64,000 nucleotides of DNA from Bifidobacterium sp. ESL0800 (GTDB lineage Bacteria > Actinomycetota > Actinomycetes > Actinomycetales > Bifidobacteriaceae). Below the pieces are notes generated by a model that saw only the letters and a program-made list of their open reading frames with translations, made no database searches and was not told where the DNA came from. Numbering within the stretch: position 1 is the first letter of the stretch; the number at the start of each line of letters is the position of its first letter. Shown piece after piece: positions 43,296 through 55,783 of this stretch. Location: the NCBI RefSeq assembly GCF_029395355.1, contig NZ_CP113913.1:620001-684000 (forward strand), given 5' to 3'. The translations under genes were made by a program, and so were the position numbers.

Positions 43296-43458
43296 GTCAA
43301 ATTAGGAAACAGTTATTTCCCGACCTTCACTGCGTTGGTTATTTGTTTATGATGCTCTTTAACATGAGCTCAGGCCGACGGATAGGTGATGCGCAGACGC
43401 AAAGCTTGGTTGAATATATTCTTTTATTCGCTGGCAGAAAGAGTCTCCTTTGGCATAA

Positions 43459-43633
43459 GCAGAACCCCGGAGATATGCGTTGTTGTGGCGTAAGACATGG
43501 CCGAGCAAAATCATGGATTTTGCCTTCGTGCTCTTATATCGCACTCACTTCGCCTACTGGAAGTCCGCTGGACTTCCAGTTTAACGGCTCAGCCAAGGAG
43601 CGTCCACAATAACGTATATCTCCGGGGTTCTGC
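43459..43633. repeat. Large palindromic element, copy 1 (with internal multi-hairpin insert)
   Basis: Thirty-base arms (43459-43488 and 43604-43633) pair throughout, two of the pairs being G-T. Inside is a core that reads CGTAAGACATGGCCGAGC on the left (43489-43506) and GCCAAGGAGCGTCC on the right (43592-43605), shared with the copy at 53532. Between the core halves lies an 80-base insert with three more hairpins: AAAATC/GATTTT (43507-43521), GTGC/GCAC (43528-43544) and an 11-bp ACTGGAAGTCC/GGACTTCCAGT (43556-43580). It starts 163 bases after the hydrolase gene and ends 18 bases from the tal stop, so it may also end tal transcription. No flanking target duplication is visible. Confidence 0.75.
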
Positions 43634-43651
43634 GACTACCCTTAAAAGGAA

Positions 43652-44755
43652 TCAGCCGTTGACGCGGTCGATACCGGCCTGCGTGTCGGAAAGCACGGAA
43701 TCCCAGGAGGCGATGAACTTCGAGACGCCGTCGGCTTCGAGCTGGTCGGTGACGTCCTTGATGTTGATGCCGAGTGCGGCGAGCTTGTCCATGATGGCCT
43801 GGCTCTCCTCATAGGTGCCGGCGATGCTGGGCTTGCCATCACCGTGATCGGCGAGGGCGTTCAGCGTCTTTTCAGGCATCGTGTTGACGACGTCAGGAGC
43901 GACGAGTTCGTCGACATACTTGCAGTCGGAATAGGCGGCGTTCTTGGTGCCGGTGGAAGCCCACAGCGGACGCTGCTTCTTGGCGCCCTTGGCCTCGAGT
44001 GCGGGCCAGCGAGGATCGGAAGCGAACTTCTCCTCATAGAGCTTGTAGGCAAGGCGGGCGTTGGCCACAGCGGCCTTGCCTTCCAGAGCCTTCGCTTCGT
44101 CGGAGCCGTTGGCTTCGAGCAGCTTATCCACGGCGGTGTCGACGCGGGAGACGAAGAAGGAGGCGACCGAAGCCATGTGCTTCAGATCGTGGCCGTTCTT
44201 CGCGGCCTGCTCGAGACCGGAGATGTAGGCGTCGATGACCTGCTCATAGCGCTCGAGCGAGAAGATCAGCGTCACGTTGACGGAGATGCCCTTGGCGAGC
44301 GTGGCGGTGATGGCCGGCAGGCCTTCAAGGGTTGCCGGGATCTTGATGAGCGCGTTCGGACGATCAACCATCTTCCAGAGCAGCTCAGCCTGCTTCTCGG
44401 TGTTCTCGGTGTCGTGGGCCAGACGGGGATCGACCTCGATGGACACGCGGCCGTCGACGTAATCGGTCTTCTCGGCGACTTCACGGAAGATATCGGTGGC
44501 GTTGCGCACATCGGTGGTGGTCAGTTCGCGAACGGCGTCCTCGACATTGATGCGGCCGAGTTCCTTGAGCTGTTCGTCGTACGGGCCGACCTGGGCCAGA
44601 GCCTTCTGGAAGATGGACGGGTTGGTGGTCACGCCAACGACGTTCTTGTCCTTGATGAGCTCCTGCAGGTTGCCGGAGGTGATACGCGTACGATCAAGGT
44701 CATCGAGCCAGATCGAGACACCGGAATCGCTGGTGCGCTGCGTTGCTTCTGTCAT
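43652..44755 (-). CDS. tal: Transaldolase
   Basis: Transfers dihydroxyacetone units between sugar phosphates; with transketolase it feeds the bifid shunt. 367 residues, the longer actinobacterial type. The Schiff-base lysine lies in [15 protein letters not shown] (about residue 137), the N-terminal strand is [12 protein letters not shown], and the conserved [13 protein letters not shown] follows in the barrel. AAGGAGATAAG precedes the ATG. It lies downstream of tkt on the same strand, 127 bases apart. Confidence 0.95.
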
Positions 44756-44770
44756 ATTCTTATCTCCTTA

Positions 44771-44790
44771 TTCCAATATCGGTATTGGAA
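44771..44790. promoter_or_regulatory. Inverted repeat in the tal leader
   Basis: TTCCAATA (44771-44778) and TATTGGAA (44783-44790) form a perfect dyad directly before the tal ribosome site. The half TTCCAATAT recurs at 46998-47006, again just before the ribosome site of tkt. Function unknown. Confidence 0.4.
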
Positions 44791-44882
44791 AGTTTTTGTT
44801 TTTCAAAGCGATGCGGCTACTTGCGGCTCTTGCGAAATCTGGCAAACAACCGCATCGCTTATGCATTGTTGAGGTCAGGACC

Positions 44883-46982
44883 TCAGGCGCGAGCCTCTTC
44901 GATGGAGGCTTCGGCGGCTTCGACCACATGCTCGGCGGTGATGCCGAGGTCGATCATGTTCTGCGCACCGTCGCCCTGAAGGCCGAAGCGCTCGATGGAA
45001 ACCGGCTTGCCGCAGCTGCCGAGGTACTTGTACCAAGGCATGGCAATGCCGGCCTCGATGGAGACGCGGGCACGAACGGACTTCGGAAGGATGGCTTCCT
45101 TATAATCCTCATCCTGTTCCTCGAACCATTCCATGCACGGGAAGGAAACCACGCGGGCCTTCACGCCCTTGGCTGCGAGGGTCTTGGCGCCTTCGACGGC
45201 CCACTGGACTTCTGAACCGGTGGCCATGATGATGACATCGGGTTCTCCGTCGGTGTCGACCAGGACGTAAGCGCCCTTGCGAACGCCGTCATGCGCCTTT
45301 TCGGCGGTTTCGGCAAGCGTCGGCACACCCTGACGGGTCAGGATCATCGCGGTCGGCAGGGTGTTCTTCTTCTCGAAGAAGTAGCGGTAGGCCTCGGCGG
45401 TCTCGAACTCGTCGGCAGGGCGGACGACTTCCATGTCAGGCATGGCGCGGAAGGCGGCCAGGTGCTCGATCGGCTGGTGGGTCGGGCCATCTTCGCCGAG
45501 AGCCACGGAATCGTGAGTCCAGATGTAGAGGTTCGGCAGCTTCATCAGCGCGGCGAGACGGACCGCCGGACGCTCATAGTCGGAGAACTGGAAGAACGTG
45601 CCGCCGTAGGGACGGGTGTCGCTGCCCAGTAGGATGCCGTTGGTGATGGCGCCCATGGCGAACTCGCGCACGCCGAAGTGCAGCTGACGGCCGTACTTGT
45701 TGGCCTTGGGCCAGGTGCGGGTCTCGTCGGCTTCGGGGCCGAAGGTCTCAGCGCCGTCGATGTCGGTCTTGTTGGAGCCCGCGAGATCGGCGGAGCCGCC
45801 CCACAGTTCCGGCATGACCTTGGCGATGGCGTTCAAAACCTGGCCGGAGGACTTGCGGGTCGCGGCCTGATCGCCGGCGGCGAAGCTCTTCTCGAGCTCG
45901 TCGATGGCCTCGTCGAAGCCTTCGGGCAGCTTGTGGGCCTTGATGCGGTCATAGAGCTTGGACTGCTCGGGGTTGGCCTTGCGCCAAGCGGCGAGCTTCT
46001 CGTTCCACTCCTTGTGAGCCTCGAGGCCGCGGTCGGCGACCTTACGGGCGTGGGCCAGAGCCTCTTCGTCAACGGGGAAGTCCACTGACGGGTCGAAGCC
46101 GAGAACCTTCTTGAGGCCGGCGACGGCTTCGGCGCCGAGCTTGGAGCCGTGCGCAGATTCGTCGTTGGTCTTGCCGGGGGTCGGCCAGGCCATCAGGGTG
46201 TCGACCTTGATGAACTTCGGGCGATCGGTGACTTTCTCGGCCTTGTCGAGCGCCGCGGCCAGGGCCTCGGTGTCTTCCTTGTAGGAACCGTCGGGCTGGA
46301 CGAAGCTGACTTCGTCGGTGTACCAGCCGTAAGCCTCATAACGCTTGAGGATGTCTTCGGAGAAGGTGAGCTTGGTGTCGCCTTCGATCTGGATGTGGTT
46401 GGCATCGAAGATCACGGTGAGGTTGCCGAGACGTTCGTTTCCGGCGAGGGAAGAGGCTTCCGAAGAAACGCCTTCCTCGACGTCGCCTTCGCCGCAGATG
46501 ACCCAGACCTTGTGGTCGAAGGGCGAGGTGCCGGCGGGGGCGTTCGGATCGAGCAGGCCACGCTCGAAGCGCTGGCCATAGGCGAAGCCGACGGCGGAAG
46601 CGAGACCCTGGCCGAGCGGGCCGGTGGTCATTTCAAGGCCGGGGGTCAGGCCGACTTCAGGATGGCCCGGGGTGCGCGTGTCGGCGCCGCCGCGGAAGTA
46701 CTTGAGGTCGTCAAGCGTCAGACCGTAGCCGGCGAAATAAAGCTGAACATACTGAGTCAGCGAGGCGTGGCCACCGGAGAGAATGAAACGATCGCGGCCG
46801 TCCCAGTGGGGGTCGTTGGGATCGTGCTTGATGTAATGCTGATAAAGTGTGTAGGCAATCGGAGCCAGGGAAATGGGAGAGCCTGGGTGGCCGCTGCCAG
46901 CCCGCTCAACCGCATCCGCGGAGAGCACCTTCGCCATCTTGACGGCGCGCTCGTCCAAATCCGACCAAGTGAAATCGGTCAT
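44883..46982 (-). CDS. tkt: Transketolase
   Basis: Thiamine-diphosphate enzyme moving two-carbon units. 699 residues from the ATG at 46982 (an in-frame ATG at 47003 is less well placed). The TPP/Mg motif begins GEGDVEEGVSSEA (about residue 160) and continues to IFDANHI. Substrate histidines are in GSGHPGSP and GPTHQPIEHL. The C-terminal domain contains VIIMATGSEVQWAVEGA. Together with tal it generates the pentose phosphates and fructose 6-phosphate used by phosphoketolase in this genus. Confidence 0.96.
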   Translation of the reverse strand: MTDFTWSDLDERAVKMAKVLSADAVERAGSGHPGSPISLAPIAYTLYQHYIKHDPNDPHWDGRDRFILSGGHASLTQYVQLYFAGYGLTLDDLKYFRGGADTRTPGHPEVGLTPGLEMTTGPLGQGLASAVGFAYGQRFERGLLDPNAPAGTSPFDHKVWVICGEGDVEEGVSSEASSLAGNERLGNLTVIFDANHIQIEGDTKLTFSEDILKRYEAYGWYTDEVSFVQPDGSYKEDTEALAAALDKAEKVTDRPKFIKVDTLMAWPTPGKTNDESAHGSKLGAEAVAGLKKVLGFDPSVDFPVDEEALAHARKVADRGLEAHKEWNEKLAAWRKANPEQSKLYDRIKAHKLPEGFDEAIDELEKSFAAGDQAATRKSSGQVLNAIAKVMPELWGGSADLAGSNKTDIDGAETFGPEADETRTWPKANKYGRQLHFGVREFAMGAITNGILLGSDTRPYGGTFFQFSDYERPAVRLAALMKLPNLYIWTHDSVALGEDGPTHQPIEHLAAFRAMPDMEVVRPADEFETAEAYRYFFEKKNTLPTAMILTRQGVPTLAETAEKAHDGVRKGAYVLVDTDGEPDVIIMATGSEVQWAVEGAKTLAAKGVKARVVSFPCMEWFEEQDEDYKEAILPKSVRARVSIEAGIAMPWYKYLGSCGKPVSIERFGLQGDGAQNMIDLGITAEHVVEAAEASIEEARA

Positions 46983-47125
46983 AGGTGTATACTTTCCTTC
47001 CAATATTCTGGATGCCGCAAACGCGGCTTATTCCGCGCCGCAGAGCACCCTCACATTGCCCTTTCATGCTAACTTTAAGAGCCGACGAAAAGTGAGGTTT
47101 TGAACACCTTTGGTATGTTTTGTTA

Positions 47126-47139
47126 TGTTAGCGTTCACG
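47126..47139. promoter_or_regulatory. Weak LacI-like site between tkt and hrcA
   Basis: TGTTAGCGTTCACG matches 11 of 14 positions of the palindrome found before pgk (38692) and has the same central CG. It lies upstream of tkt on its strand. The match is imperfect, so this is only a candidate. Confidence 0.3.
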
Positions 47140-47185
47140 TAAACAAAACCTTGCAATATGGCCGAATATCCTGAGAGTGGAACGA

Positions 47186-47212
47186 TTAGCACTCTCCAAC
47201 CAAGAGTGCTAA
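47186..47212. promoter_or_regulatory. CIRCE element before hrcA
   Basis: TTAGCACTC (47186-47194), a 9-base spacer and GAGTGCTAA (47204-47212): a perfect CIRCE, the binding site of HrcA. It lies 68 bases before the hrcA start and implies autorepression of the hrcA-dnaJ operon. Confidence 0.95.
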
Positions 47213-47280
47213 TACTTTGATATACTTATCAATATTTGGATATCGCTTTGAGTGTCGAAACGACCATGGAAGGAGGACCG

Positions 47281-48369
47281 ATGACACAGTCGAGACGCAT
47301 GCTGGTGCTGAGGGCCGTGGTCGAGGATTACATCCGTTCGCAGGAGCCGGTCGGGTCGACGGCTTTGACGCGGGCGCACAACCTGGGGGTAAGCTCTGCG
47401 ACCATACGAAACGACATGTCGGCTTTGGAAGAAGAAGGATATCTGATTCAGCCCCATACCTCGGCCGGACGCATCCCCACCGAACGTGGTTACCGTTATT
47501 TTGTCGATCGGCTCGCTTCGGTTGTCCCGCTCTCGCAAGCGCAACGACGTGGAATCACCACGTTTCTTTCCGGTTCGGTAAGCCTGTCGGACACGTTGCA
47601 GAGAGCTGCACGTCTCCTGGCCAATATCACCGGGCAGGTCGCGGTGGTCTCGTCTCCGGCGCTGTCGAAATCAAAGCTGCGACATATAGAGATCGTCCCG
47701 TTGAACGCCGCCACCATGCTTACCGTCATCATCACGGATTCAGGTTCGGTGGCTCAGCATACCTTTACCTTGAGGCAGTTGCCTGACGCCATCGCGTTGA
47801 ACAGGTTTTCCGGGCTCGTCAATGCGCAATGCATGGATATGCCGCTGGTGCAGGCCGCGCGTCGTATCCGCACTATCATCAAAGCGCCTGAATACGGTTC
47901 AGTACGTCCGCTGGGGGAGAGCCTTGCCAAAACCGTCGAATCCATGGCTCACGACGAAGGCACCGGGCAGATGTATATGGCCGGGACTTCGCAGCTCGCC
48001 CACAAACAATCGCGCGCCGACCTTGCGCCGTTGTTCGACGCGTTGGAAGAACAGGTCGTTCTCATGCATCTGATGAGTGATCTCAGTGAGGAAAGCGAGG
48101 TCGGTGTGGCCATCGGCTCCGAGACCAGGACGCCCGGGCTTATTCACGCCTCTGTGGTTTCTTCCGGCTACGGCCGTAGCGAGACGGACGAGGTGTCGGA
48201 CGCCGATAACGATTCTGACGGGGAAGAAGGTAAGGAATCGGTTTCGCGTCCCGTGGCGTTTGTCGGTTCCATCGGTCCCACGCATATGGATTACGAGACG
48301 ACGATCACGGCGGTGCGGGCCGTGGCCAGATACCTCACGGATCTGATAGCCAGCGATGAGACGGCTTAG
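47281..48369 (+). CDS. hrcA: Heat-inducible transcription repressor HrcA
   Basis: Represses chaperone genes by binding CIRCE. 362 residues from ATG 47281, with GGAAGGAGG upstream. Winged helix at the N-terminus (SRRMLVLRAVVEDYIRSQEP; SSATIRNDMSALEEEGYL), then the HrcA signature PHTSAGRIPTERGYRYFVD. A polar, acidic insert (about residues 300-335, DEVSDADNDSDGEEGKE) near the C-terminus is not seen in most homologues. The C-terminal YETTITAVRAVARYLTDL motif is present. dnaJ follows in the operon. Confidence 0.95.
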   Translation: MTQSRRMLVLRAVVEDYIRSQEPVGSTALTRAHNLGVSSATIRNDMSALEEEGYLIQPHTSAGRIPTERGYRYFVDRLASVVPLSQAQRRGITTFLSGSVSLSDTLQRAARLLANITGQVAVVSSPALSKSKLRHIEIVPLNAATMLTVIITDSGSVAQHTFTLRQLPDAIALNRFSGLVNAQCMDMPLVQAARRIRTIIKAPEYGSVRPLGESLAKTVESMAHDEGTGQMYMAGTSQLAHKQSRADLAPLFDALEEQVVLMHLMSDLSEESEVGVAIGSETRTPGLIHASVVSSGYGRSETDEVSDADNDSDGEEGKESVSRPVAFVGSIGPTHMDYETTITAVRAVARYLTDLIASDETA

Positions 48370-48451
48370 TATTCCAAGGCTTATGAAACAATAACTGGCA
48401 GAACGTACCATAAACATTATTCGGTTAGAATCATACATTCGAGGAATTTCA

Positions 48452-49597
48452 GTGGCAGAAACAGACTATTACGAAGTATTGGGCGTAGAGCGCGGCGCAA
48501 GCGACGAGGAAATCAAGAAGGCTTACCGCAAGATGAGCCGCAAATACCATCCAGATATCGCGGGTCCTCAGTATGAGGACAAATTCAAGGAAGTCAACAA
48601 CGCCTACGATGTGCTGAGCGACCCAGACAAACGTCGCATGTACGATTCCGGTATTGATCCCAACGACCCGAATGCGGGTTCAGGCTTCGCTTCCGCAGGT
48701 TTCGGCGATATGGGCGACATCTTCGGCCAGTTCTTCGGCAACGCCTTCGGTGGCGGCGGGCAAGGTCCGATTCCGCGTACCCAGCCTGGGCGTGACGCGC
48801 TTTCCAGCACTTCCATCGATCTCAAGACAGCGGTGTTCGGCGGAACCGCGCATGTGAAGATCAATACGTTCGGCCTGTGCCAGAAATGCGGCGGCAAAGG
48901 TACGGCAAACGGTGAAAACCCGGTAACCTGCCCGGATTGTCGAGGTCAGGGCGTGCGCCAGCAAGTCCGGCGGACCATGCTTGGCCAGATGATGACGACG
49001 GTGCAATGCGAGCGTTGCGAAGGCCACGGCACCATCATCGAACATCCCTGCCCGACCTGCCAGGGCCATGGCCGTATCCGTACTACGCGTGAGGTCGGTG
49101 TCACCGTTCCGGCCGGGATCGAAGACAATACCCGCCTGCGCCTTGCCAATCAGGGCGAGGTCGGCGAAGGCGGCGGCGCTGCGGGAGACCTCTATATCGA
49201 TATCCGTATCAAGCCGGACAAGCAGTTCACGCGTGAAGGCGACGATCTGCATTGTTGGATACAGATTCCGATGAGTTGGGCCGTGCTCGGTCACGACCTC
49301 GATATCGATACGTTTGACGGCAAGCAGACCATCAGCATTCCGGAGGGCTGCCAGCCAGAGGAAACCGTTTCCATCAGGGGAATCGGCGTGGCGAAGATGC
49401 GCAAGCCCGAAGAACGCGGTGACCTGGTAGCTCATGTGAGCGTCCATATTCCCACCAAGCTCAGTGACGGCGAACGCGACCTCATCGAGCAATTCGCGAA
49501 AAGCCACGACGCAAACGCCGTCAAGGTGAATCAAAGCTCACGGCCGGCGGCAAACAGAAAGGGCTTCTTCGATAAGCTCAAAGACGCCCTTCACTGA
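48452..49597 (+). CDS. dnaJ: Chaperone protein DnaJ
   Basis: Co-chaperone stimulating DnaK. 381 residues. J domain with the HPD tripeptide ([10 protein letters not shown]) at about residue 34, a Gly/Phe-rich region ([20 protein letters not shown]), four zinc repeats [24 protein letters not shown] and CPTCQGHG, and the C-terminal substrate domain. GTG start with GAGGAA five bases upstream. Pairing with hrcA, apart from dnaK-grpE, is the DnaJ2 arrangement of actinobacteria. Confidence 0.94.
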
Positions 49598-49647
49598 AAA
49601 ACACGAATCCATCACTTTTCAGAGTATTGTATTGCAACGGTGATAGT

Positions 49648-49689
49648 GAGAAGCGCTCTCGGATACGGTCTTGGACGAAAGCGCTTCTC
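49648..49689 (+). terminator. Hairpin after dnaJ
   Basis: GAGAAGCGCT (49648-49657) pairs with AGCGCTTCTC (49680-49689) across a 22-base loop, between the convergent dnaJ and kinase-like genes. It lacks a T run and may work for both strands. Confidence 0.5.
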
Positions 49690-49712
49690 GCATAAGGATT
49701 TAGGAATGGTCT

Positions 49713-50504
49713 TCAGGACAGCAGCGAACGGCACATGGCACGGTATTCGCTGACATAGCCGCCACCGAAGAAGACGCAGTGCCCGGCGATCGGGTAGAGC
49801 TGCCAGATGGTGATTCTATCGGGGAACCCTTTTTTGAGGGGATGCGCTGATTCGTAGCCGTCGAGAATTTCGTCCAAATAGGGCATGCCGAAAAGATTGA
49901 GCATCGCGAGATCCTCTTCTCGATGACCGCCGTGCGCGGCCGGATCGATCAGAACGGCTTCGCTCTGCCCGGAATCGTCGGTCCACATCACATTGCCGCT
50001 CCACAGATCGCCATGCACCCGTGCCGGTTTGTCTTGCGCGGCAGGCCCGAGCAGATCGGGCAGCACATCGATGACTTCCTGCGTCATTTCCAGATCGTTG
50101 TCGTTCAGTTCACCGCGTTTGACCCCGAGTCTGACCATGGGCAGCAGACGTCCCTCACCCAAGTAGTCAACGGGGTTCGTCCATTTGCCGGTATCCATCG
50201 GTACCGGATCCTGCAGCGGGCCGAAATAGCATGTTCCGTCATAACCGGCCGGTGCGGAACCGAAATAGTCGGCGCCTGCGTCGTGCATATGTGCAAGAGC
50301 GGCCCCGAAGTCATGGGCCGCCTTGGGGGTGGGAGAGCAGGAGTTCACCCGCTCGATGTCGAGCCATCCGTCTCCCCATCCATAGACGTCGACCACACGC
50401 GGTCCGCCCTGTGATTGGGCCTCGCCCAGCCATTTGAGACCTTTGCCTTCGCACTCGAAGAATCCCTTTGGCGCGAACGCCCTGCTTTTACGGTATTTTG
50501 CCAT
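49713..50504 (-). CDS. Fructosamine kinase-family protein with short N-lobe
   Basis: 263 residues of the fructosamine-3-kinase/aminoglycoside phosphotransferase fold. Catalytic-loop motif VHGDLWSGNVMW (about residue 164), Mg-binding IDPAAHGGHREEDLAM, and the family start FFECEGKGLKWLGEA at residues 16-30. The segment that would normally come before this (glycine-rich strand and ATP-binding lysine) is almost absent: only 15 residues precede it. The protein may use the KYRKSR residues instead, or be altered in activity. A GGTAGC site precedes the ATG. It could deglycate proteins or sugars. Confidence 0.8.
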   Translation of the reverse strand: MAKYRKSRAFAPKGFFECEGKGLKWLGEAQSQGGPRVVDVYGWGDGWLDIERVNSCSPTPKAAHDFGAALAHMHDAGADYFGSAPAGYDGTCYFGPLQDPVPMDTGKWTNPVDYLGEGRLLPMVRLGVKRGELNDNDLEMTQEVIDVLPDLLGPAAQDKPARVHGDLWSGNVMWTDDSGQSEAVLIDPAAHGGHREEDLAMLNLFGMPYLDEILDGYESAHPLKKGFPDRITIWQLYPIAGHCVFFGGGYVSEYRAMCRSLLS

Positions 50505-50780
50505 GATGCTACCTTTCTTTTGCTTTCAGTAGCCATAAAGGAATCCTACCAGCACTTGCAAAGCGGATTTTCTGGTTCGCGGCTTATCGGGCAATGGACT
50601 TTCTTGTGCGGTTCTGTATTCCCATTGCGTATGCGATGTGAGACAATCACAGTCGAGACACACGGAGTTCCGATACATTGGGTAGGCTGAACACGTTAGA
50701 CACGAACCCCGTAGGCTACCCGCCGTATTGACGAATGCGAGTAAGACTCTTCCTGACGGGGACACGCATAAAGAGGGATT

Positions 50781-51695
50781 ATGAATTTCTTCCAAGCCAT
50801 CGTTCTGGGACTGGTCCAGGCGCTCACCGAATACCTTCCGGTGTCCTCCAGCGCACATATCCGCATTGTCGGTGAACTGATGCTCAATTCCGACCCGGGC
50901 GCGGCGTTCACCGCCATCATCCAACTCGGCACAGAGCTTGCGGTCATCTTGTATTTCAGACGTGATATCGTCAGGATTCTTTCGCACTGGTTCTCGTGCC
51001 TGTTCGGCCATCGCGGCACGGATTGGAAATCCCGGCTCGGCAAAGGCGACCGCGACGCGACGTTCGGCTGGTACATCATCATCGGCACCATTCCTATTCT
51101 CATCGCAGGCGTCCTCTTTCAGAAAGCCATCGAAACCACGCTTCGCAACCTTTGGATCACGGTGACAGTGCTTCTGCTGTTCGGTATCCTTTTGTGGGTC
51201 GTCGACGCAAGATTCCCCGAGCGCAAGACCGTTCGCGAGATGAATTGGAAGGACGCCCTGCTTTTCGGCGTCGGCCAGATGCTGGCGCTGATTCCCGGCG
51301 TCTCCCGTTCCGGCGGCACCATTACCTTTGGGCGTGCGATGGGCTATACGCGCGAGGATGCCGTGCGAGTGAGCTTTATCATGGCCATTCCCGCTGTATT
51401 CGGTTCCGGCATTCTGGAAGCCGTCAAGGCTGTCGGGGATTACAAGAGCGAGCCGAATTTCCCGGGCTGGGGTGCGACGTTGGCTGCGATGGTGGTCAGC
51501 TTTATTGTCGGTTATTTCGTCATCATCGCGTTTCTGAAATTCGTTTCGACCTTCTCGTACAGGGCGTTCGCCATCTACCGCATCATCATCGCCGTCGTGG
51601 TCGCGATTCTTTTGATTGCCGGCGTGCTTCAGGCCTCACCCGCGACTGCCGAGGCTGTAACATCAACGATTGCACCGATTGCCGCTCTGATTTGA
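50781..51695 (+). CDS. uppP: Undecaprenyl-diphosphatase
   Basis: Membrane enzyme recycling undecaprenyl diphosphate for peptidoglycan synthesis; also gives bacitracin tolerance. 304 residues with about eight membrane segments. Catalytic motif 1 is LTEYLPVSSSAHIRI (residues 15-29) and motif 2 PGVSRSGGTI (about residue 173). The C-terminal hydrophobic segment ends in a short Ala/Thr tail. GAGGG precedes the ATG. Confidence 0.94.
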   Translation: MNFFQAIVLGLVQALTEYLPVSSSAHIRIVGELMLNSDPGAAFTAIIQLGTELAVILYFRRDIVRILSHWFSCLFGHRGTDWKSRLGKGDRDATFGWYIIIGTIPILIAGVLFQKAIETTLRNLWITVTVLLLFGILLWVVDARFPERKTVREMNWKDALLFGVGQMLALIPGVSRSGGTITFGRAMGYTREDAVRVSFIMAIPAVFGSGILEAVKAVGDYKSEPNFPGWGATLAAMVVSFIVGYFVIIAFLKFVSTFSYRAFAIYRIIIAVVVAILLIAGVLQASPATAEAVTSTIAPIAALI

Positions 51696-51732
51696 GTGTG
51701 TTCGATGCTGTTTGAATAAGCTGCGTCGAGCA

Positions 51733-51778
51733 AACAGAAGGTGCCTGCCGAATAGACGATCGGCAGGCACCTTCTGTT
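51733..51778. terminator. Bidirectional terminator between uppP and the PAC2 gene
   Basis: An 18-bp perfect stem (51733-51750 with 51761-51778; centre GGTGCCTGCCG/CGGCAGGCACC) and a 10-base loop, between convergent genes. T-rich sequence GTTGTTTTG follows on the plus strand. Confidence 0.85.
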
Positions 51779-51837
51779 GTTTTGATCCCGTGAGTTCTTG
51801 TTTTATCAGTGATCGAAGTATCTGTTAGCGCAGACTT

Positions 51838-52716
51838 TCAGTCTTGTATGTGTGAAAGGAACTCCTCGGCTTCCTGAGCTATCTCGTCACCGCGTGAGAC
51901 GATGCCGTTGCCCAGCTTGTCGAGTTGCTGGTCGAGGTCGTATTTGGCCTCGAGATGATGGATGTAGAATTTCAGGTCATCGTTGCAATTGGCGAGGACG
52001 TCGGCCTGCGCCTTCCAGGTCACGGATTGCTGCGGCAGTGTTCCGGTGTTGAGCTGAACGCCCAATATTTGCGAGAGCCTCTGCAATATCTGCAGTGTGC
52101 CTTGCGGGCATTCGTCCCCGGCCAGGTATTGCGGTACGGAGATCCACATCGAATTGGTGCTGAACCCCTCCTGCTCGGCGAACATGTCGAGTACTGTAGG
52201 GATGCCGACCGGCCCGTCGTAAGGGTTGCTGCCTTTGCTGTGCCTCTGCGAATCCTTGACCGCGCCCCCCCGGATGCTTGATTCTCCGCGCCGCAACGCC
52301 GATTCTTCGATGGGCAGTGGACGGGTGTGCGGGCAGTCGGCGAACATCGATCCCAAGGTCACGATTTCGCTGACATCCAGTTCATCGGCGATACGCAGGG
52401 AATGACGGCAATAATCGATCCACCGGTAATTGGGTTCCGGGGCTATCTGGGCGTATATATGGGTTTCCGGGGCAATCGTGATTTCGTAGAAGGTCGTCTG
52501 CGGCCAGACGATGCGTGCCTGACCGGTGATATGGCAGATCATCGGACGTGCGGACTGCAGGTCGTAATAGCTGTCGGTGCGAATATGTCTGATCTCACGT
52601 GACTCGTAGGTGGCCACGAGATGGCGGATTACATTGGTGGCTGCCTGGCTGGCGTCGTTCCATCCTTCGAAGGCGCAGACCATGATCGGCTTCGCTGTTT
52701 TCGCATCTGTTGTCAT
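51838..52716 (-). CDS. PAC2-family protein (proteasome assembly chaperone-like)
   Basis: 292-residue soluble protein. PAC2 motifs: VCAFEGWNDASQAATNVIRHL at the N-terminus, EIVTLGSMFADCPHTRPLPI in the middle, and FSTNSMWISVPQYLAGDECP followed by ALRRG-type linker residues. C-terminal helices (DQQLDKLGNGIVSRGDEIAQEAEEFL) resemble actinobacterial members. The family is linked to proteasome assembly in eukaryotes. The bacterial role is not settled, and bifidobacteria keep the gene outside any protease cluster in this window. Confidence 0.88.
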   Translation of the reverse strand: MTTDAKTAKPIMVCAFEGWNDASQAATNVIRHLVATYESREIRHIRTDSYYDLQSARPMICHITGQARIVWPQTTFYEITIAPETHIYAQIAPEPNYRWIDYCRHSLRIADELDVSEIVTLGSMFADCPHTRPLPIEESALRRGESSIRGGAVKDSQRHSKGSNPYDGPVGIPTVLDMFAEQEGFSTNSMWISVPQYLAGDECPQGTLQILQRLSQILGVQLNTGTLPQQSVTWKAQADVLANCNDDLKFYIHHLEAKYDLDQQLDKLGNGIVSRGDEIAQEAEEFLSHIQD

Positions 52717-52944
52717 AAATTCTAATTTAACTGCTAGAAACCTTGAAATTTGAGGGCTTATGCCATCGGTGAATGAGTTTCATCTACGAGAGTAGAAACA
52801 AACATTGTGGAACGGGGTAAGGAAGTGACCAATTATTCGGCAGAAATATTGATATTTCGGGGCGACACGCAGCCATTTGTCAAATGGCCGAAGACCATAT
52901 ATAGTTATCTCTCGTGCTTCGGTGAAGGAATTCACTGAGACTTT

Positions 52945-53017
52945 GCGGACATAGCTTAGTTGGTAAAGCGCGACCTTGCCAAGGTCGAGAGCGCGGGTCC
53001 GAGTCCCGTTGTCCGCT
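52945..53017 (+). tRNA. tRNA-Gly (GCC)
   Basis: Seven-base acceptor stem GCGGACA/TGTCCGC, anticodon loop CTTGCCAAG with anticodon GCC, TpsiC loop GTCCGAGTC and discriminator T. CCA is not encoded. First of five tRNA genes; nearly identical to the one at 53374. Confidence 0.95.
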
Positions 53018-53046
53018 CTAGGTCCGAAGAGTTGTAACGACCTTAC

Positions 53047-53117
53047 GGTGGGTTAGCCAATCGGTTAGGCAGCGGCCTGCAAAGCCGTATAGACGAGTTC
53101 GACTCTCGTACCCACCT
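53047..53117 (+). tRNA. tRNA-Cys (GCA)
   Basis: Acceptor GGTGGGT/ACCCACC, anticodon arm GGCCTGCAAAGCC with anticodon GCA, TpsiC arm ACGAGTTCGACTCTCGT, discriminator T. Confidence 0.94.
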
Positions 53118-53158
53118 CGGAAGAGGAAAGCGGAAGCTTTTTGATTCCAAGACAACCT

Positions 53159-53231
53159 GGGCGGTTGGCGCAGAGGCTAGCGCACTTCCCTGACACGGAA
53201 GGGGTCACAAGTTCGAATCTTGTATCGCCCA
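53159..53231 (+). tRNA. tRNA-Val (GAC)
   Basis: Acceptor GGGCGGT/ATCGCCC with one G-T pair, anticodon arm CTTCCCTGACACGGAAG with anticodon GAC, TpsiC arm around GTTCGAATC, discriminator A. Confidence 0.95.
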
Positions 53232-53236
53232 CAAGG

Positions 53237-53258
53237 ACCGGAGGAGACTCCGGTTTTT
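53237..53258 (+). terminator. Rho-independent terminator inside the tRNA cluster
   Basis: Stem ACCGGAG (53237-53243) / CTCCGGT (53248-53254), a GAGA loop and a run of five T. It separates the first three tRNA genes from the last two. Confidence 0.88.
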
Positions 53259-53279
53259 GTTTCATAAATGAATACAATC

Positions 53280-53352
53280 GGGTGATTAGCGCAGCGGTTA
53301 GCGCACTTCCCTCACACGGAAGGGGTCGCTGGTTCGATTCCAGCATCACCCA
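53280..53352 (+). tRNA. tRNA-Val (CAC)
   Basis: Acceptor GGGTGAT/ATCACCC, anticodon arm CTTCCCTCACACGGAAG with anticodon CAC, TpsiC arm CTGGTTCGATTCCAG, discriminator A. Its D and anticodon arms resemble tRNA-Val(GAC), suggesting duplication and divergence. Confidence 0.95.
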
Positions 53353-53373
53353 CGATTAGTATCTAATCTTTTT

Positions 53374-53446
53374 GCGGACATAGCTTAGTTGGTAAAGCGC
53401 GACCTTGCCAAGGTCGAGACCGCGGGTCCGAGTCCCGTTGTCCGCT
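53374..53446 (+). tRNA. tRNA-Gly (GCC), second copy
   Basis: Differs from the copy at 52945 by a single base (C for G) in the variable region. Same acceptor stem, anticodon GCC and discriminator T. A short T run (TCTTTTAT) follows. Confidence 0.95.
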
Positions 53447-53531
53447 CTTTTATTCGCTTATAATTCTCTAACAGTGTCAAGGGCTATATGTTTTTCTTTC
53501 TGGATGCTGAATATTTTTATCATTCTTGATT

Positions 53532-53616
53532 GGGGTTTGGGGATATGCCTTGTTCGGGCGTAAGACACGGCCGAGCGGCCAAGGAGCGTCCCGAACAAGG
53601 CATATCCCCAAACCCC
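53532..53616. repeat. Large palindromic element, copy 2 (compact form)
   Basis: Perfect 27-base arms (53532-53558 and 53590-53616) enclose the core CGTAAGACACGGCCGAGC (53559-53576) and GCCAAGGAGCGTCC (53578-53591), in which GGCC/GGCC makes a small inner stem. The core matches copy 1 at 17 of 18 and 14 of 14 bases, whereas the arms differ by paired changes. It sits between the last tRNA gene and thrS, about 130 bases before the thrS start, so it could end tRNA transcription or shape the thrS leader. Confidence 0.78.
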
Positions 53617-53749
53617 GCACAGTAAGTGGCCTTGTGGATGCATCGCTTTCGCAGCCATGTCGGCCTGCTCTCATATTGTTGGCACTGTTGAATTACCGTC
53701 CAGGTCTGCCCCTAGTAACGCGGACCCTGAAAGCAAAGGACACCATACC

Positions 53750-55783
53750 ATGGCTGAACAAACCATCTCCATCACACTCAACGGAAGCGCAAAGGAGGTG
53801 GAAGCCACACAGACCGGCACCGATCTCTTTGCCGAAGACAAGAACATCATCGCCGTGCGTCTCAACGGCAAGCCTCGTGACCTTTACACCCCGCTTCATG
53901 ACGGCGACACCGTCGAACCCATTGCCTTGGACAGCGAGGACGGTTTGGCGATTATGCGCCACTCCGCCACCCATGTGATGGCGCAGGCCGTTCAGGAGAT
54001 TCGACCGGATGCCAAGCTCGGCATCGGCCCGGCCATCGAAAACGGCTTCTACTATGATTTCGACGTTGACAAGCCCTTCACCCCCGAAGACCTGAAGGAA
54101 ATCGACAAGCGCATGAAGCGCATCATCAAGTCCTCACAGTCGTTCCGCCGTCGTGTGGTCACCGAGGACGAGGCCAAGGCCGAAGAGGCCGACCAGCCTT
54201 ACAAGCTTGAGCTCATCGGCAAGAAGAAGGAAGACATCGACGAAACCGTCGGCACCGAGGTGCCGAATCAGGGCGAGATCACGATGTACGACAACCTCGA
54301 CCGTGACGGCAACATCGTCTGGAAGGACCTCTGCCAAGGGCCACACCTGCCCAATACTCGCTATATCAAGGCTTTCAAGCTGGAACGTACCGCGGCCGCC
54401 TACTGGCTCGGTGACGAGCACAACCCGTCGATGCAGCGTATCTATGGCACGGCCTGGGCTTCCAAGGAAGACCTGAAGGCCTATCAGACCCGTATGGAGG
54501 AGGCCGCCAAGCGCGACCACCGCAAGCTTGGAGCCGAAATGGACCTCTTCTCCTTCCCGGAGGAGATCGGACCCGGCCTGCCCGTCTTCCACCCGAAGGG
54601 CGGTGCGATCATCAACGCCATGGAGGACTACTCCCGTGAGATGCATCGCAAGGCCGGATACAGCTTCGTGCAGACCCCTCACATCACCAAGGGCGGCCTC
54701 TACGAGACCAGCGGCCACCTGCAGTGGTACAAGGACGGCATGTTCCCACCGATGCACCTCGACGAGGAGAGCGACGAGAACGGCAACGTCACCAAGCAGG
54801 GCTTCGACTACTACCTGAAGCCGATGAACTGCCCGATGCACAACCTCATCTTCAAGTCCCGCCAGCGCTCCTACAAGGAGCTGCCGCTGCGTCTCTTCGA
54901 GTTCGGCACCGTCTACCGCTACGAGAAGAGCGGCGAGGTCCACGGTCTGACCCGCGTGCGCGGCTTGACGCAGGATGATTCGCACATCTACTGCACCCGT
55001 GAGCAGATGAAGGGCGAGTTGAAGTCCATCCTCAACTTCGTGCTGAAGGTCCTCAAGGACTTCGGCCTGAACGACTTCTACCTTGAGCTCTCCACCAAGG
55101 ACGAGAAGAAGTTTGTGGGAAGCGACGAGATCTGGACCGAGGCCACCGAGACGCTGCGCGAGGTCGCCGAGGAATCCAAGCTCGAGCTCGTCGCCGATCC
55201 GGGCGGGGCCGCCTTCTACGGACCGAAGATCTCCGTGCAGGCCCGTGACGCCATCGGCCGAACCTGGCAGGTCTCGACCATCCAGCTCGATTTCAACCTG
55301 CCTGAGCGCTTCAAGCTCGAGTACATCGCGAAGGACGGCACCCACCAGCGTCCGGTGATGATCCACCGTGCCCTGTTCGGTTCCATCGAGCGCTTCTTCG
55401 CCATCCTGCTTGAGCACTATGCAGGCGCCTTCCCGGTCTGGCTGGCCCCGGTTCAGGTCACGGGCATCCCTGTGGCCGACGAGTTCGCGCCTCATCTGCG
55501 CAAGTTCATCGATTCCCTGACGCAGGAGACCGTGCGCTGCGAGATGGACACTTCCGACGACCGCTTCGGCAAGAAGATCCGCAATGCCTCGAAGTCGAAG
55601 GTTCCCTTCACTCTGATCGTCGGCGAGGATGACGTCAACAAGAACGCGGTGAGCTTCCGCTTCCGCGACGGCAGCCAGCTCAACGGCGTGCCGGTCGAGA
55701 CGGCGAAGGCCGACATCCTGAAGGTCATCAAGTCCCGTGCCCAGGTCAACAACGCCGACGATTTCGCCGAAGCGACGAAGTAA
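53750..55783 (+). CDS. thrS: Threonyl-tRNA synthetase
   Basis: Charges tRNA-Thr. 677 residues from ATG 53750 (AAAGGA upstream). TGS domain at residues 1-65. Editing domain with [12 protein letters not shown] and CQGPHLPNT. Class II core (about 270-560) with [20 protein letters not shown], zinc-site [12 protein letters not shown], motif 2 [19 protein letters not shown] and motif 3 [22 protein letters not shown]-terminal anticodon-binding domain. In-frame codons upstream of 53750 run into the leader and are not used. Confidence 0.96.

Follow-up and report, generated by a model that had tools for sequence, protein, structure and literature searches.

A family of dispersed hairpins in Bifidobacterium with typed cores and site-specific, covarying arms

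In REPIN/RAYT systems, pairs of inverted palindromes form the unit. The repetitive extragenic palindromes (REPs) of the GTAG and CGTC super-families, as described in the main text of Di Nocera et al. (2013; PMC3733652), are 20-40 bp long, with stems of 5-13 bp and a terminal GTAG or CGTC tag. They are dispersed and extragenic, lie mostly by gene 3' ends between co-directional or convergent genes, and form head-to-head dimers. G-T pairs and complementary stem changes were noted in them, CGTC REPs were without a dedicated transposase, and the word Actinobacteria is absent from that main text. In pneumococci, BOX is a modular repeat with an optional inner module and SPRITE a long terminator-like hairpin near 3' ends, according to Croucher et al. 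(2011; PMC3049150). Here, two hairpins in a 64,000-nucleotide stretch of the Bifidobacterium sp. ESL0800 genome (G000; contig NZ_CP113913.1, positions 620,001 to 684,000), called the window throughout, were followed up as members of a family. Their arms change in step while the fold is kept, and their cores fall into types that replace one another at single sites. On balance, the elements probably form a genus-specific, dispersed, non-autonomous REP-like palindrome family that has been mobilised and is kept as a 3'-end hairpin.

The Bifidobacterium elements often occur as inverted palindrome pairs, as in REPIN/RAYT, but no RAYT-type (Y1) gene was found in G000 or in most genomes of the genus. 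They resemble the REPs outlined above in being extragenic, multi-copy, set at gene 3' ends and arranged as inverted dimers. Compared with the GTAG and CGTC classes as that text presents them, their stems are longer (mostly 26-32 bp), a conserved internal loop lies near the tip, the outer arms are site-specific and there are two size classes. The terminal tag is not general: CGTC stands at the foot of the stem in only some copies of the bee clade introduced below, and others have CGAC, CGGTC or GCACAG. It is fair to say that the family works like a REP, because placement, inverted dimers and the CGTC-class lack of a transposase are held in common; it is not a GTAG or CGTC REP, because tag and stem length differ. 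Known REP behaviour does not account for the swapping of core types inside conserved arms that are particular to each site. The family is also modular, with an optional inner domain, and forms long hairpins near 3' ends like BOX and SPRITE; those repeats were found with sequence-profile models, whereas the outer stem in Bifidobacterium is free in sequence. Terminator-like hairpins fill the same sites in some related species, a likeness to intrinsic terminators, from which the element differs in its conserved core and in having no T-run. The family is apparently undescribed: none like it was found in the open-access literature searched, which took in part of the longest result lists and leaves most subscription papers outside. 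A spaced inverted motif, GGGACAG-N15-TGTCCC, is on record for B. animalis (PMC5217627).

Paired arms and conserved cores

Both hairpins lie where the original prediction placed them, and the observation was confirmed as real and larger than first stated. With the settings used, they topped the ten inverted repeats detected in the window. Folding against dinucleotide shuffles gave z of -11.3 and -10.5 for the two strands of copy 1 and -10.0 and -10.6 for copy 2. Arms of 30 nt enclose a spacer of 115 nt in copy 1, and arms of 27 nt one of 31 nt in copy 2. The paired arm changes that had been reported hold at both pairs checked by position (A43471-T43621 and G43479-C43613). The apex of copy 1 bears an extra structured domain of ~84 nt that had not been separated, so that copies 1 and 2 are a long form and a short form.

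Covariation, together with changes in place at orthologous sites, gives strong support to the claim that the arms drift in sequence without losing their fold. In 45 bee-clade copies chosen by their core, 94.1% of pair cells were paired, against 33-44% with partners slid by 1-3 columns; double changes occurred in 27 of 36 pairs, and the covariation score was 0.517 (0.141 shuffled, at most 0.120 slid). Double changes rose to 28 of 33 pairs, and the score to 0.702, in 77 genus-wide copies pre-selected with a stem finder. Arms with at least 18 of 24 Watson-Crick pairs flanked all 174 distinct short-form core matches in the collected loci, which were gathered by core patterns or covariance-model matches and form no whole-genome census.

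At five orthologous sites, 636 pair cells had changed, a count that leans to intact copies and rests on non-independent species pairs (22 of 127 unalignable): 385 had changed on both sides and were still paired, 149 had changed to or from G-T, 50 involved A-C, 25 were other one-sided mismatches and 27 were double but unpaired. Left out were G096 at the copy-1 site (missed by the regular expression), G097, G106 and all minus-strand mates at L086, G106 at L004R, G000, G104 and G106 at L004L, and G097, G102, G096 and G104 at thrS (L and G numbers are our own, for loci and genomes); some of these carriers are chimeras with badly paired arms. Twelve similar pairs, selected as examples and not the full set, held 28 changes. 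Both sides had changed and still paired in 9; another 13 were one-sided and involved G-T, 5 were one-sided and broke the pair, and 1 was double and broken. The double changes include transversions unable to pass via G-T, even between similar arms (A-T to C-G, G-C to T-A). Between G000 and G101, both arms at the copy-1 site differ by a one-base shortening.

Read upwards from its foot, an element starts with outer arms that are specific to the site. These lead into an inner stem around GATATGCGATG and then an asymmetric internal loop, topped by GGCC-GAGC-GGCC or a variant of it; the stems mostly span 26-32 positions. At least five core types were told apart, lettered A to E in a grouping of our own. 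The internal loop of type A has TAAGACAY on the 5' strand and AAGGAG on the 3' strand; the corresponding strands are GTAAGCTT or GTAGGCTT and TTGAG in type B, GTAAAGCTT and TGGAG in type C, GTAAAGACTT and CGGAG in type D, and GTAAGACTT or GTATGACTT and CGGAG in type E. The core had been called fixed; it is constant inside one type, but several types substitute for each other at the same site. In the long form a three-hairpin domain takes the place of the tip, and across 22 long forms 90.7% of pair cells were paired (27.5-46.0% slid), with double changes in 14 of 33 pairs. The internal loop was also considered as a UAA/GAN or kink-turn motif, an idea dropped because TATGACTT, TAGGCTT and TAAAGCTT exist as variants. 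The parts of both window copies are given in Table 1.

Some copies depart from this plan. The long elements L303 (G097) and L276 (G102) have mismatched left and right arms and look chimeric, as if two alleles, or the two elements of a pair, had been joined. At L155 (~1485-1612) the stem of one copy spans 49 positions with at least one mismatch, because the left flank is close to a reverse complement of the right flank usual in the family (CGGTCACCGCTGGAACG); template switching or the collapse of a pair may have left this trace. In several copies from outside the bee clade (L186-L192, L198 and others), a near-palindromic box like AACGTNACGTT was noted by eye some 20-40 nt outside the hairpin, on one or both sides.

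Table 1. Coordinates of the two hairpins and their parts in the window.
Feature	Position	Strand	Remarks
Copy 1, whole element	43459..43633	+	long form, type A core
Copy 1 left arm	43459..43488	+	93% complementary to copy 1 right arm
Copy 1 internal loop, 5' strand	43491..43498	+	conserved; TAAGACAT
Copy 1 apical long-form domain	43499..43594	+	three hairpins: 43505-43512/43516-43523, 43528-43531/43541-43544, 43557-43566/43570-43579
Copy 1 internal loop, 3' strand	43595..43600	+	conserved; AAGGAG
Copy 1 right arm	43604..43633	+	inverted-repeat search of window
Alpha/beta hydrolase gene, neighbour of copy 1	ends 43295	+	
Transaldolase gene, neighbour of copy 1	3' end 43652	-	
Copy 2, whole element	53532..53616	+	type A core, short form; flanked by thrS and by a tRNA cluster whose last tRNA ends at 53446
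Copy 2 left arm	53532..53558	+	100% complementary to copy 2 right arm
Copy 2 internal loop, 5' strand	53561..53568	+	TAAGACAC
Copy 2 apical stem-loop	53569..53580	+	GGCC-GAGC-GGCC
Copy 2 internal loop, 3' strand	53581..53586	+	AAGGAG
Copy 2 right arm	53590..53616	+	inverted-repeat search of window

Distribution, orthologous sites and placement

The exact core pattern matched 6 times in G000 and 2-11 times in each of 12 related genomes (G095-G106), which we take to be a bee-gut lineage; Bifidobacterium sp. ESL0682, ESL0763 and ESL0784 and one Bifidobacterium metagenome-assembled genome (MAG) are the named relatives with the core. Elsewhere among 189 family genomes it gave at most two matches per genome, with no arms at the loci inspected. 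An exact match in an archaeal MAG (L065, one of ten stretches in named genomes) had no matching arms and looks like chance.

A first covariance model, built from the 45 core-selected short copies, matched 69 of 112 Bifidobacterium genomes at E 0.01 or better. It matched none of 295 other genomes sampled from the class (E 1e-6, stricter filters), which also serves as a control against the model catching any long hairpin. A broader model found the family in 70 of the 112 genomes at E 1e-5, with up to 39 matches per genome, a number that overstates copies because palindromes can match on both strands. The genus-wide search proposed with the original prediction has accordingly been made: further copies are present in related genomes, and their arms are not identical repeats of one sequence but different and still paired. 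A recount in G000 gave at least 18 copies at 12 sites, including 7 long forms and 6 head-to-head pairs. In three pairs of copies at different G000 sites the left arms are alike at 20-21 of 22 positions, a likeness that would be in line with dispersal. Searches of Rfam gave only tRNAs above threshold in the window, and at a lax threshold the matches overlapping elements at four loci were all far below gathering scores. Copy 2 had no phage or plasmid match at blastn sensitivity, in a search from which the records nearest its source were perhaps excluded.

At the copy-1 site, between the hydrolase and transaldolase genes, 8 of the 12 bee-clade relatives have the element and 4 (G102-G105) a simple terminator-like hairpin instead; the replacement hairpins of G102 and G104 have the outer stem AGAACCC in common. 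The core there is of type A in G096, G100 and G101, type B in G098, G099 and G106, and type C in G095 and G097, and G000 has the long type A form. The copy-2 site, between tRNA genes and thrS, has a clear orthologue in 6 of the 12, and in G106 a type C element lies at another place in the gap. Elements occupy the L004 site in 10 of the 12; in their place, G098 and G102 carry a long terminator-like hairpin whose 3' end has six T. At L086, at least one element of a pair was found in all 12, with types A, C and D and long forms exchanged. Core types and long and short forms are swapped at single sites, and at any one site many species have similar arms, which change in step. Orthologous sites with and without the element exist, and no identical duplicate was found in G000. 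A short tandem repeat of ~15 bp (TTTGTGGTTGATCAC) was seen at L297 (~1319-1403), in the gap where G098 misses the element.

Placement was tabulated for 138 elements with both neighbours called (genes were called with a codon score of our own making; of 154 elements, 16 lacked a called neighbour and were set aside, and overlapping loci mean that some elements were counted more than once). The element was co-directional and sense to its neighbours in 57, co-directional and antisense in 65, between convergent genes in 15 and between divergent genes in 1; among window gaps of at least 100 bp, 5 of 26 are divergent. The sole divergent case is copy 2, whose true upstream neighbour is the uncalled tRNA cluster on the same strand. 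Elements no more than 350 bp apart point away from each other (-/+) in 51 of 53 records and are separated by 42-280 bp (identical stems removed, each pair counted from each member), and all six paired sites in G000 are head-to-head. A sense-strand terminator in the 3' untranslated region of the neighbour was considered and dropped, with 65 of 138 elements antisense to both neighbours and antisense single copies showing the same strand bias.

Strand bias and explanations

The inner 15 positions of the 174 short-form stems, picked by core pattern and set in register by Watson-Crick pairs only, hold 194 G-T and 8 A-C pairs. At inner positions 10 and 12 of 153 stems, counted with a finder that accepts G-T and so leans to it, G-C, G-T and A-T are all present and A-C is absent. 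Such an excess of G-T over A-C is characteristic of a stem that folds from a single strand, be it RNA or single-stranded DNA; a few positions shared by descent contribute part of the bias. Covariation together with strand-specific G-U pairs, as looked for in structured RNA, was found in the inner stem only.

We picture a REP-like family retained at gene ends as follows. The conserved inner part, a stem of ~15 bp that carries the asymmetric internal loop, the tip GGCC-GAGC-GGCC and in some copies the extra three-hairpin domain, has a preferred folding strand and would probably be the recognition target of a protein or enzyme; mobility of the family, past or present, is likewise presumed. The outer part of ~8-14 bp, site-specific and paired without clear strand preference, would provide a strong hairpin beside the stop codon. 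Such a hairpin, if transcribed, would probably act as a barrier or end point for transcription or shield 3' ends, and two of them head to head would serve both directions. Selection for a hairpin at the site would keep copies, so that arms would evolve by paired changes, and core types are exchanged between copies. Template-switch correction may help to keep the arms matched. Homologous exchange between species at one site could spread alleles, but on its own would not put different cores into the same arms. Among the three options put forward originally, a dispersed palindrome and a strand-specific structure such as RNA both fit; a protein-binding cruciform gives no reason to expect a strand bias in the inner stem.

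Several results weigh against a REP-like family kept as a hairpin. The anticipated REP-associated Y1 transposase did not appear: G000 has no PF01797 candidate, and PF01797 occurs in only 7 of 112 Bifidobacterium genomes. Reverse transcriptase (PF00078) is likewise missing from G000 and present in 8 of the 112; no mobilising enzyme was identified in this search, which was aimed at these two kinds and not at other transposases or recombinases. No two of the 18 copies in G000 have identical arms, and arms are badly paired in some chimeric copies (G097 at L086, G102 at thrS). A scan for intrinsic terminators gave none at copy 1 or 2, the elements being without a T-run; it also left unscored the replacement hairpin of G102 at the copy-1 site and that of G098 at L004, despite the six T at the end of the latter. 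At the copy-2 site, 5 of 12 relatives have neither element nor clear replacement hairpin in the 420 bp upstream of thrS, and 9 of the 138 placements overlap a called open reading frame, on crude gene calls. The strand bias, too, is confined: the outer 9 positions of the 174 stems hold 23 G-T and 16 A-C pairs (p 0.34, no clear bias), and the apical domain of the long form 11 and 12. Single copies antisense to both neighbours (n=41) hold 48 G-T against 4 A-C, and those sense to both (n=32) 40 against 2, in counts from the G-T-tolerant finder; since the bias is equal in the two groups, it belongs to the element and not to the transcript of the neighbouring gene.

That bias in antisense copies, with the inner-stem bias at large, speaks for a host-serving family of structured RNAs, each copy transcribed on its own strand and its core bound by a Bifidobacterium protein (e.g. 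a ribonuclease, RNA-binding protein or termination factor) in a regulon of 3'-end or antisense RNAs. None of the 174 core matches in the collected loci is without arms, the multi-helix long form has double changes, and a promoter-like site lies on the element's strand ~105 bp upstream of copy 1 (43326-43353, +; 9 of 12 matches, 0.4 expected by chance). No such site was found near copy 2, the few identified neighbours (hydrolase, transaldolase, tRNA/thrS) have no common function, presence varies between related species at the same site, and folding of single-stranded DNA would yield the same bias; we regard an RNA family as unlikely. The paired transversions, by contrast, are what self-templated upkeep would leave, in which an arm mutation is copied by intrastrand template switching at replication (quasipalindrome correction) and no selection acts on the fold. 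The matched shortening in both copy-1 arms of G000 and G101 and the long stem at L155 also suit it. It predicts neither the strand bias of the inner stem, nor an asymmetric internal loop that stays unpaired, nor placement at gene 3' ends, and appears distinctly unlikely.

A miniature transposon that is actively moving as single-stranded hairpin DNA through a non-Y1 transposase would fit the many copies, their head-to-head pairing, the strand bias, the changing occupancy of orthologous sites and the near-identical left arms at different G000 sites. This is doubtful still more strongly, given 105 of 112 genomes without a Y1 match (G000 included), the variety of arms among its 18 copies and arms that keep evolving as pairs in place. 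Long, nearly perfect palindromes with outer arms of no clear strand preference could also be extruded as DNA cruciforms bound by a nucleoid, replication or topology protein; the inner-stem bias and the tie to gene 3' ends make this highly improbable. The boldest reading can be put forward tentatively, and is not what we expect: the inner module would be a mobile cassette that homes into the apex of terminator hairpins and replaces its relatives there, the outer arms being the host site's and the core the element's. If true, it would be a class of selfish cassette specialised for hairpin loops, and cassettes would be exchanged through a mechanism new to Bifidobacterium, on the strength of no more than some ten base pairs of similarity at the flanks. 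The family gives a well-sampled natural series in which a palindrome fold is held constant while its sequence is rewritten at fixed genome positions, and which lets fold selection, template-switch correction and hairpin-targeted mobility be separated. Read as REP-like, it brings to an important genus of gut bacteria a class that has no Y1 transposase and sits where transcription ends.

Two further observations were made at these loci. A match to the thiamine pyrophosphate (TPP) riboswitch at L086:394-503 (-) is below the gathering score (48.1 against 54.3 bits). Ahead of thrS, a conserved leader at 53700-53755 of the window (GTCCAGGYCTGCCCCTAGTAACGCGG...CCTGAAAGCAAAGGACA) is recognisable in orthologues, also in those without the element, and may be a regulatory hairpin over the ribosome-binding site.

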